This document shows positions 23,698 to 29,681 of a DNA stretch of 33,963 nt, piece after piece (the first letter of the stretch is position 1; each line of letters opens with the position of its first letter). Location: positions 1 through 33,963 of the forward strand of contig JAJFLJ010000244.1 in NCBI GenBank assembly GCA_021772755.1, written 5' to 3'. Both the position numbers and the translations under genes were made by a program. This DNA comes from Candidatus Sumerlaeota bacterium. GTDB taxonomy: Bacteria > Sumerlaeota > Sumerlaeia > SLMS01 > JAHLLQ01. The notes beneath the pieces were generated by a model. It had not been told where the DNA came from and did no database searches. It saw only the letters and a list, made by a program, of their open reading frames with translations.

Positions 23698-25347
23698 CTA
23701 CTCGCGCCAGCCCCGCGTCACGTCGACGCCCGCCAGCGGCGTCTGGATGATGCTCCTGGTGTCCGGCCTCAGAAGCACCGGCGAGTTGTATTCGTAGATG
23801 GGGGCGATGATGCAGTCCTCCACGACGATCAGGCGTTCGGCCTCGACGATGTACTCCAGACGCTTGTCGGGGTCGGACTCGGTGCGGATCTTCGCCAGCA
23901 GACCGTCGTACTTCTCGCTGGAGTAGCCCGCGCCGTTCTTCTCGTGGCCGGTCTCGAAGATCTCCAGAAACGTCAGCGGATCGAGATAGTCGCCCACCCA
24001 CGAGGAGCGCGCGCACACGAAGTCGTGCGAGCGGATCGCCTTCAGCAGCTCGCCCCACTCGACGTTCTGGATGTCCACGGTGGCGCCGAGATTCGTGTTC
24101 CAGAAGTTCTGCAGCGTCTGGCCGATGTCGAGGTGCACCGGATCGGTGTTCACGATATATTCGATGCGCGGGACCGACTTGCCGCTTCCGTAGCCGGCTT
24201 CGGCGAGAATCCGTTTCGCCTCCGCGACCTCGCCCTCGTAGTCCTCCGGGTGGAGCAGTGCGGGCGCCGCGTCGCGGTAGTCCCGACCGTCCTCCAGCAG
24301 CATTCCGCGGGGGATGTAGCCCGTCGACGGGAGTTCGCCGCGGCGGACGATGCGTTCGGCGATGAGCTTGCGGTTGATGGAGCGGCTGAAGGCCTTGCGC
24401 AGCGCCGGATCGGCGAAGGGGCCGCTGGTCGTGTTGAACGTGACGAAGTAGACGCAGAGCAGCGGCGAGCTCATGAAGTCGGGGCGCTTCATCAGTTCGA
24501 GCGCCTCGCGGTTCGGGACGGTGTTGGTCAGGTCGATGTCGCCGGCCTCGTAGGCGGCGAGTTCCGTCGGCGTCTCCTCGATGTAGTGGAACTCGACCTT
24601 CTCCCAGAATATCTCGTCCGGCGAGTGATAGAAGGGATTGCGCTTCGCGATCAGGCGGCTCTTCGGCTCGATCCTCTCGGGCACGAAGGGGCCGTTGACG
24701 ACGAACGTTTCCGGCCTGGTGTTCCAGTCGTCGTGCGCCTCGACCGTCGCGCGGTGCAGCGGATACCACGCGGGGTGCGAGAGCAGGCTGGGGAAGTAGT
24801 GCGTCGGGTTTTCGAGCGTGATCTCCAGCGTGTGATCGTCGATGGCTTCGATGCCGAGGAGATCGGCGTTGCGTTCGCTGCCGGTGAAGTACTCCTGGCC
24901 GCCCTTCAGGAAGGTGTAGACCATCATGCCCATGGCGGCGCCGGTCTCGGGCGTGAGGATGCGCTCGACGGCATAGACGAAGTCGCCGGCGACGAGGGGA
25001 TCGCCGTTGCTCCACTTCGCGTCGGGATTGAGGTGGAACGTCCACGTCGTGTATGTGCCGTCGTGCTCCCACGTGTCGGCGGCGCCGGGCATCACCGACC
25101 CGTCGTCGGCCATGCGGAGAAGCGGCTCGAACGTGTTGCGCAGAACGTTCATGCTGGCGATGTCGGCGGCGTGGCTCGGATCGAGGTCCGGCGGATCGGC
25201 GCCAAGGGCGAACCGGAACGTCTTCTTTCCGGTCTCCGCCTTAGACGACGCGCCTTCGTCCGAAGAGGTGGTGCGGTCGGCGTCTCCGCCGCAGCCGCCC
25301 AGCAGGGCCGTCAGCGCGACAGCCGGAATCCATGCGGTGTATCTCAT
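23698..25347 (-). CDS. Family 5 extracellular solute (peptide)-binding lipoprotein, OppA/DppA-like
   Basis: A 549-residue substrate-binding protein of ABC transporter family 5 (oligopeptides, sometimes other ligands). It starts with a lipoprotein signal, hydrophobic run ending ALLGGC (lipobox, C19), then a flexible Ser/Thr/Glu-rich linker (about 20-42). Family landmarks include FRFALGADPPDLDPSHA, NTFEPLL, AKWSNGDPLVAGDFVYAVERI (the conserved W-x-DG-PxxAxDF stretch) and RKAFSRSINRKLIAERI. The length is normal. The ATG at 25347 fits the signal peptide. No permease or ATPase gene adjoins it, so the transporter it serves is elsewhere or it acts alone. It lies 32 bases downstream of ridA on the same strand, and a terminator follows. 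Confidence 0.95.
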   Translation of the reverse strand: MRYTAWIPAVALTALLGGCGGDADRTTSSDEGASSKAETGKKTFRFALGADPPDLDPSHAADIASMNVLRNTFEPLLRMADDGSVMPGAADTWEHDGTYTTWTFHLNPDAKWSNGDPLVAGDFVYAVERILTPETGAAMGMMVYTFLKGGQEYFTGSERNADLLGIEAIDDHTLEITLENPTHYFPSLLSHPAWYPLHRATVEAHDDWNTRPETFVVNGPFVPERIEPKSRLIAKRNPFYHSPDEIFWEKVEFHYIEETPTELAAYEAGDIDLTNTVPNREALELMKRPDFMSSPLLCVYFVTFNTTSGPFADPALRKAFSRSINRKLIAERIVRRGELPSTGYIPRGMLLEDGRDYRDAAPALLHPEDYEGEVAEAKRILAEAGYGSGKSVPRIEYIVNTDPVHLDIGQTLQNFWNTNLGATVDIQNVEWGELLKAIRSHDFVCARSSWVGDYLDPLTFLEIFETGHEKNGAGYSSEKYDGLLAKIRTESDPDKRLEYIVEAERLIVVEDCIIAPIYEYNSPVLLRPDTRSIIQTPLAGVDVTRGWRE

Positions 25348-25884: not shown

Positions 25885-26955
25885 TCAGGCCGGGTTCGGG
25901 GCCTTTTCGAGATGTTCGAGTGCGACGATGCGGTGGGCGATCTTGTCGGCCATCTGTGCGGTGATGCTCTCCATGCTCCAGAGGCTGCCTTTCAGTCCGA
26001 AGAACCGGGCGATGGCGGCGACGTAGTCCTCCGCCTTGTCGGAGTGGCACTTGCCGTCCATCCACTTTTCGAGGAGCGCCTTCTCCGCCTCGTCCGTCGG
26101 CGCGCCGTGAAGGCGGCCCTGCATCGCGCCGAGCAGCCGGTGGAAATCGCCCGGCAGCGTGCCTTCGGGCAGGTAGGGCTTGAACGGTTCGCAGGAGGGC
26201 ACTTCCTCCTCGGTCTGCGAATCGGAAACGTACTTTCGAAAGACGCCTGAATCGCGCGCCTGCTGCAGATACTTCTCCTGCGCGTCCTGCGGAAGTCCCC
26301 AGAATCCCGGAGCCGCGTCGTCGCCCGCCTCGGCGGCTTCGCTGACGGAGTCCGAAGCGGACGCGGCGGCGGCCTTTGCGGCGGCGGCCTTTTCGGGATT
26401 CTCCTTCGCCCACAAGTCCGCGGCCTTCGCCGGGGCTTCCTCGTCCTCCTCGGCGGCTCCGGACTTCTTCACCCACTCCTGCTGTTCGGATTCGGCGAGG
26501 CCGAAGAATCCGAGCGCCTCCTTGCCCGGCTCTGCGGCGGACTTCGAACCGTCCGCCTTCGACCCTTCGACGCGCGACCGGATCGATTCCGACGCCGCCT
26601 TCGCCGCGTCGGGGTTTTCCTTCTCCCAGAGGTCCGCAGCGATTTCCATCAGCTGCTCCTCCTCCTCGCCCACGTCGCCGGCGCCGTTCTCGTACATGAA
26701 CGCGAGGCGGTCCTGGGCGAAGAGACGGACGTCGAACCCCTCGCTGTTGTAGACGTTCAGTTCGATATGGGCGGCGGTGGGGAACTCGACGCAATCCTTG
26801 TAGGAAAGGCCCATCTCCAGGTAGACGTTGATCCACTTGCCGTAGGGCTTGCTGATGACGAGCGCCTGGGTGCTCTTGAGCAGAGCGCCGGCGATGACGC
26901 GGCCGGTGTCGTTGTCGGGAACATAGACGTGTGTCGCGTGCGCATAGACGCCCAT
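25885..26955 (-). CDS. Unknown protein with a tandemly duplicated helical module
   Basis: A 356-residue protein I do not recognise, with no signal peptide or membrane helix. Residues of about 1-92 form an alpha/beta domain (GVYAHATHVYVPDND, ALVISKPYGKWINVYLEMG, DVRLFAQDRLAFMYENG). Two copies of a module of about 70 residues follow: AADLWEKENPDAAKAA (106-121) with GFFGLAESEQQEWVKKSG (149-166), and AADLWAKENPEKAAAA (178-193) with GFWGLPQDAQEKYLQQ (217-232). Ala/Glu/Lys- and Ser-rich linkers join them. A C-terminal helical part (about 255-356) contains DFHRLLGAMQGRLHG and WSMESITAQMADKIAHRI. The ATG at 26955 has AGGAG eight bases upstream. It heads the run with ridA and the peptide-binding protein gene. 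Cytoplasmic and possibly structural or adaptor-like, but this is speculation. Confidence 0.78.
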   Translation of the reverse strand: MGVYAHATHVYVPDNDTGRVIAGALLKSTQALVISKPYGKWINVYLEMGLSYKDCVEFPTAAHIELNVYNSEGFDVRLFAQDRLAFMYENGAGDVGEEEEQLMEIAADLWEKENPDAAKAASESIRSRVEGSKADGSKSAAEPGKEALGFFGLAESEQQEWVKKSGAAEEDEEAPAKAADLWAKENPEKAAAAKAAAASASDSVSEAAEAGDDAAPGFWGLPQDAQEKYLQQARDSGVFRKYVSDSQTEEEVPSCEPFKPYLPEGTLPGDFHRLLGAMQGRLHGAPTDEAEKALLEKWMDGKCHSDKAEDYVAAIARFFGLKGSLWSMESITAQMADKIAHRIVALEHLEKAPNPA

Positions 26956-29067: not shown

Positions 29068-29298
29068 ATGGGCACTCTCAAGGTCAAGGTCACCACGGTC
29101 GGCAACTCGGCGGGCGTCGTTCTGCCCAAGGAGGTATTGGCCGGTCTCAACGTCGAGAAGGGCGATTCTCTCAGCCTGGTTCGGACCCCGACCGGTTATG
29201 AACTGACGGCCTACGATCCCGGGTTCGAGGAGGAGATGGAAGCCGCCCGCGATATCATGAAGCGTTACCGCAATTCGCTGCGCGAGCTGGCGAAGTGA
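29068..29298 (+). CDS. AbrB/MazE-type antitoxin
   Basis: A 76-residue antitoxin with an N-terminal swapped-hairpin AbrB fold: VKVTTVGNSAGVVLPKEVLA (6-25) carries the GNSxGVxLPKxxL signature, followed by LNVEKGDSLSLVRTPTGYELTAY. Dimers of this fold bind DNA. The C-terminal helix (EEEMEAARDIMKRYRNSLREL) should contact the toxin. The ATG at 29068 has GGGG upstream. Its stop overlaps the GTG start of the Doc gene (GTGA, 29295-29298), so translation is coupled. It is expected to repress its own promoter at the palindrome upstream. Confidence 0.92.
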   Translation: MGTLKVKVTTVGNSAGVVLPKEVLAGLNVEKGDSLSLVRTPTGYELTAYDPGFEEEMEAARDIMKRYRNSLRELAK

Positions 29299-29681
29299 GT
29301 CGGCACTGGCTTTCACTGAAACTGGTCCTTGCGATTCACTCCGAGCAGGTCGCCGAACACGGCGGATCGGCAGGCGTTCGGGACATGGGCCTGCTCGAAT
29401 CGGCCCTGGCAAAGCCTCGGAATCTGGAGAACTATGGCGACCCCGATACTGCGGCGCTCGCAGCGGCGTACGGTTTCGGTATCGCCAAGAATCATCCCTT
29501 TCTGGACGGAAACAAGCGAACGGCGTTCGTTGCCGGTGCGCTCTTTCTGGAGCTCAACGGTCGCCGGGTAACGGCTGCGGAGACGGATGTCGTGGAGACG
29601 TTCCTCGCGCTGGCAGGCGGCGATCTGACGGAAGAGGAACTGGCGTCCTGGTTTCGGGAGAACTCGGTCCCCGCTTCGTAG
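29295..29681 (+). CDS. Doc-family toxin (death-on-curing, Fic fold)
   Basis: A 128-residue Doc toxin of the Fic superfamily. The core motif is HPFLDGNKR (67-75), the Doc form of the Fic motif HxFxxGNxR, with H67 as catalytic base. In P1, Doc phosphorylates EF-Tu and halts translation; that activity is assumed here from the family. IHSEQVAEHGGSAGVRDMGLLESAL at the N-terminus also fits Doc. The gene starts with GTG at 29295, overlapping the antitoxin stop by four bases. The pair is AbrB-type antitoxin with Doc toxin, while classical Doc is paired with Phd. The module is complete and looks intact. Confidence 0.93.
   Translation: MSRHWLSLKLVLAIHSEQVAEHGGSAGVRDMGLLESALAKPRNLENYGDPDTAALAAAYGFGIAKNHPFLDGNKRTAFVAGALFLELNGRRVTAAETDVVETFLALAGGDLTEEELASWFRENSVPAS

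Follow-up and report, generated by a model that had tools for sequence, protein, structure and literature searches.

A lineage-restricted gene of Candidatus Sumerlaeia-type bacteria that is paired with a Rid-family gene and carries a duplicated module

Introduction

An arginine of Rid proteins is reported to be essential for imine hydrolysis, and Rid proteins have been linked with FAD-dependent amine oxidases (PMC4433059). Here, we describe a gene of a Candidatus Sumerlaeota bacterium that lies next to a Rid-family gene, with which it forms a compact pair for which a shared repair step is proposed. The gene is under constraint, carries an internal duplication, has a restricted distribution and is constantly paired with its Rid neighbour. 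It was found in a stretch of 33,963 nucleotides (contig JAJFLJ010000244.1), referred to below as the window; the coordinates of its features and of the adjacent genes are compiled in Table 1.

Table 1. Features of the gene and its downstream neighbours in the window.
Feature	Position	Strand	Remarks
Whole gene, 356 aa	25885..26955	minus	ATG at 26955, stop at 25885; homologues present; dN/dS 0.077 against genus-mate (rough value)
N-terminal domain, residues 1-92	26680..26955	minus	best-conserved part
Block A copy 1, residues 106-121, AADLWEKENPDAAKAA	26593..26640	minus	AxxLW core invariant in 5/5 homologues
Block B copy 1, residues 149-166, GFFGLAESEQQEWVKKSG	26458..26511	minus	restricted to the genus of the window (2 genomes)
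Block A copy 2, residues 178-193, AADLWAKENPEKAAAA	26377..26424	minus	restricted to the genus of the window (2 genomes)
Block B copy 2, residues 217-237, GFWGLPQDAQEKYLQQARDSG	26245..26307	minus	copy common to 5/5 homologues
C-terminal domain, residues 253-356	25888..26199	minus	conserved in 5 genomes; low-confidence predicted helices, pLDDT <50
Rid-family gene, 155 aa	25380..25847	minus	directly downstream, 37-base gap; Pfam YjgF_endoribonc E 1.6e-19, Ribonuc_L-PSP 1.9e-18
Family 5 solute-binding lipoprotein	23698-25347	minus	Pfam SBP_bac_5 E 7e-74; start by eye; separated from the Rid gene by 32 bases

Constraint and domain layout

One homologue was found in a genus-mate, a Candidatus Sumerlaeia MAG (L009), whose protein is 80% identical to that of the window. 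Comparison of the two genes revealed a dN of 0.13 and a dS of 1.7, corresponding to an overall dN/dS of 0.077, which is to be read as a rough value because this dS is near saturation. Under the same restriction, the lowest regional values were those of the two A regions (0.01-0.02) and the N-terminal domain (0.02); the C-terminal domain had 0.09, blocks B1 and B2 had 0.16 and 0.11, and the linkers 0.10 and 0.40. With more distant homologues, overall values of 0.3-0.4 were obtained, which are unreliable through saturation. Residues 1-111 share 63-93% identity with the window protein across the four other genomes. We conclude that the gene is real and that its protein is under purifying selection, which is strongest on the N-terminal domain and the A blocks, while the tether evolves fast.

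The layout that best explains these data is a conserved N-terminal domain, followed by an Ala/Glu-rich tether, in which the predicted helical blocks A and B lie, and then by a C-terminal domain. No signal peptide was apparent by eye in the 356-residue protein, and we take the protein to be cytosolic.

Outside the gene pair, a gene of the Fic/DOC family was noted in the window at 29295-29681 on the plus strand (Pfam Fic E 2.8e-20), between metK and rpsB, the latter assigned by eye; it may encode the toxin component of a toxin-antitoxin pair.

Duplication in the tether

The original prediction had described two copies of a module whose two blocks stand in the same order, and this description was confirmed: AADLWxKENP starts at residues 106 and 178 (spacing 72), GFxGL starts at residues 149 and 217 (spacing 68), and the local alignment of the two copies scored 103, a value reached by none of 2000 shuffles (mean 38, maximum 69). 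At the DNA level, the alignment between the copies is confined to a 32-base stretch of block A. The linkers are Ala/Glu-rich, with an entropy of 2.75 bits over residues 176-217; yet the blocks are better conserved than the linkers in the genus-mate. Identity amounts to 25/26 for the A1 region, 18/19 for A2, 15/20 for B1 and 24/31 for B2, compared with 19/30 for linker 1 and 9/20 for linker 2.

As proposed, the module was predicted to be helical. Two AF2 models, each calculated from two rows, had mean pLDDT values of 43.7 and 41.0 and were unusable apart from the tether helices; in the model with mean 43.7, block-mean pLDDT was 67-74 for residues 101-120 and 77-81 for residues 151-190. The check for a packed solenoid relied on AF2 from two sequences with this mean pLDDT of 43.7.

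The further proposal, in which the two A-B copies would act as helical binding repeats of a scaffold, was not supported, and we consider it unlikely. It agrees with the duplication being real, with the retention of both copies between the two genus members and with the predicted helices (block-mean pLDDT 67-81) in part of the module. Against it, L003, L004 and L005, which represent two further genera, each have a single AxxLW block and a single FWDL..Q..Y..QA..SG.F block, so that several tandem copies across homologues, as expected of a helical repeat scaffold, are not seen (one copy in 3/5). Furthermore, block B had no match below E 0.088 in proteins outside its own family (15 genomes), the linkers evolve fast, and the strongest constraint falls on the N-terminal domain and the A blocks.

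Since the three homologues of the other two genera carry one copy, and the second A/B pair is confined to the window's genus (two genomes), the repeat is, judged from these alignments, no scaffold but a flexible connector that was doubled at genus level, by tandem duplication within the tether. The A-linker-B segment was duplicated once in this genus, which made the tether about 70 residues longer.

Distribution and searches for known families

A sequence search matched 5 of 61 genomes. With a profile built from these five rows, matches were obtained in 5 of the 40 genomes of the phylum, comprising all five genomes of the taxonomic family and none of the 35 elsewhere in the phylum, and the identical five were recovered among 386 genomes bacteria-wide. 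Plasmids and viral contigs contained no relatives of the protein, and the ten genomes searched in the phylum of genome G054 gave no match. All occurrences seen so far thus fall within a single family of uncultured Candidatus Sumerlaeia-type bacteria.

That the protein is unrecognised, as originally stated, was upheld, with no convincing family found in Pfam (all five homologues), NCBIfam or PHROGs (window protein only), or the PDB. Several sub-threshold matches were taken as chance, namely those to the PDB (best E 1.3 with the protein and 0.083 with the profile, the latter a partial match to DOA1) and to PHROGs (best 0.024, residues 143-236). Pfam DNA_alkylation (PF08713) was rejected at 10.6 bits for the window protein against a gathering cut-off of 21. 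At a lax E-value, the N-terminal profile matched 45 genomes outside the family (E 0.011-2); as a group, these matches were taken for chance.

Remote relatives of the N-terminal domain

The N-terminal 92 residues had been said to match nothing. This stands for named families; they probably do match an unnamed bacterial domain family, of which we consider the N-terminal domain a likely remote member on the strength of profile comparisons. The unnamed family was chosen by eye before testing, and a consensus probe was typed by hand. With an E cut-off of 0.001, this probe picked up 9 of the 386 genomes; two of these, with short open frames, were followed up, and seven (E 2.6e-4 to 9.4e-4, long open frames) were set aside. 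A three-row profile made from two sequences and the typed consensus then gave matches in 25 of the 111 genomes searched in one phylum, taken as Deinococcota from the look of the sequences, and 2 of 249 genomes of another, one of them being the source of a profile row. The proteins (loci L058-L085) are mostly of about 140-220 residues, one having 350, and their hosts were labelled by eye as Deinococcota-like, Thermus-like and Firmicute-like.

In profile comparisons, residues ~7-91 of the window protein were collinear end to end with the unnamed family. Pairwise E-values were 0.0008-0.009 for three of four groupings and 0.0024 in a further comparison, while the Deinococcota-like group alone gave E 0.17 over 22 columns. 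The scores of the N-terminal domain (22-31) exceeded every column shuffle in six overlapping comparisons, which are not independent because the groupings share sequences: 30.6 against a maximum of 24.8 (148 shuffles), 29.1 against 22.8 (150), 27.9 against 22.0 (150), 22.2 against 18.7 (100), 24.3 against 18.9 (100) and, with the thinnest margin, 25.1 against 24.5 (200).

A chance match, which would leave a true orphan domain, is the less favoured explanation, although one of appreciable weight. It is in keeping with the hhalign probabilities, which were 0.3% when the Deinococcota-like group was compared by itself and 4-32% with the remaining groupings, and with the selection of the unnamed family by eye. 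The single-sequence test was also weak: 22 of 28 unnamed-family members were equalled or exceeded by 9 or more of 111 other ORFs, just 6 of 28 were beaten by fewer than 5 of these 111, and one unrelated ORF, itself a chance match, reached 29.9. What speaks against chance is the collinear alignment above all column shuffles, together with the behaviour of one of the 111 ORFs, L092, which ranked third with a full-length alignment and proved to be an unnamed-family member. Remote homology to the unnamed family is the more probable reading for the N-terminal domain.

For the C-terminal part (ALRxWLxRRxGLGFLSExERL type), a collinear alignment scored 15.1, compared with a mean of 11.8 and a maximum of 18.6 for 99 shuffles, at least five of which scored higher; for two other groupings the scores were 14.5 (12 columns) and 9.3 (2 columns).

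Two unnamed-family members matched nothing in Pfam or NCBIfam down to a threshold of 0.05, and three members had no match among plasmids. Comparison of the unnamed family with the PDB gave a best E of 0.096. Separately, when 19 members were compared with Pfam, one matched MRB1590_C at 2e-4.

Gene order and the Rid neighbour

The adjacency to ridA, proposed as a check in relatives, was kept in 5/5 genomes, where the Rid-family gene follows 14-51 bases downstream. The gap measures 37 bases in the window; in L009 it is 27 or 51, depending on which of two possible starts is used. L003 and L005 have gaps of 14 and 17 bases, and L004 one of 37 or 43. Upstream of the gene, DinB and metK are found in the window and in the genus-mate L009; L003, L004 and L005 have divergent genes, by eye an ABC ATPase, a protein kinase and a GGDEF/EAL protein. 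The pairing with Rid is thus constant while other neighbours change between genera, and the two genes are presumably co-transcribed.

The view that the gene heads a run with ridA and a peptide-binding lipoprotein survived in its first half, ridA following in all five genomes, but not in its second. In the two genomes with room downstream, no tblastn match to the lipoprotein was found at 1e-5 in the 18-19 kb around the gene; the comparison is limited to these two, since the contig ends soon after ridA in the other two.

All five Rid proteins keep the arginine of an R(S/T)A(V/I)G stretch, which was equated by eye with the catalytic arginine. Because of this arginine and the constant Rid partner, a role in the imine-repair step of Rid is favoured. 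At a probability of roughly 0.4, the reading put first here is that the protein may act in the same damage-repair step as its Rid neighbour, joint action with Rid being a guess. It is suggested by the pairing in 5/5 genomes while the upstream neighbours differ between genera; against this, pairing in five related genomes may reflect inherited order, not function. It could, for instance, be a non-enzymatic partner whose N-terminal domain binds a substrate-producing enzyme or the Rid trimer. A more specific version, in which a lineage-specific dedicated partner would tie the Rid trimer to an imine-releasing enzyme by a tether whose length was altered by duplication, we regard as unlikely.

Equally probable to us is that the protein is independent of Rid, with the two genes merely adjacent in this lineage and the N-terminal domain having its own ligand or partner. 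Of the 40 phylum genomes, 17 contain Rid relatives (E up to 1e-20), and in 12 of these, all from outside the family, the gene itself had no match. In a search for diverged versions at these 12 Rid loci, the upstream ORFs were, by eye, unlike the gene. Moreover, six loci of the unnamed family, taken from a filtered list, had no Rid neighbour by eye. Both observations point to independence and away from joint action, while the persistence of the pair amid changing neighbours is what independence explains less well.

Other arrangements around Rid genes were noted in the phylum. In four other genomes, Rid is preceded by another uncharacterised ORF, of about 150 residues (L032 357-815, L033 1055-1495, L034 129-584 and L035 892-1350); it touches Rid in three of them, whereas in L035 some 90 bases or more separate the two, and identity to the first of the four is 38-66%. 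Rid is thus paired with different uncharacterised genes across lineages. In L030 (reverse complement 274-1476, same order), the ORF that ends immediately upstream of Rid was taken by eye for an FAD-dependent oxidoreductase.

Should the pairing of the gene with Rid be functional, it would provide a handle on the in vivo role of Rid proteins of this type, and the unnamed bacterial domain would gain a testable context. Otherwise, this is an ordinary lineage-restricted gene without assigned function.

Comparison with known systems

The Rid family (PF14588/PF01042) supplies the constant downstream gene of the locus in 5/5 genomes and has no similarity to the N-terminal domain (hhalign 11.3). To DNA_alkylation (PF08713), there is a weak likeness in two of the five members, located at residues 138-206 of the window protein in the tether, but the best E was only 0.11. 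The unnamed family differs in that the A/B blocks were not seen in its proteins, that its match to the C-terminal part stays within shuffles, and that the six loci lacking a Rid neighbour have, by eye, cytochrome b-like and amino-acid kinase-like genes instead. What it has in common with the window protein is an N-terminal domain that aligns collinearly, with the W-x-x-V/L-Y and hairpin positions in agreement, followed in similar order by a helical-looking C-terminal part.
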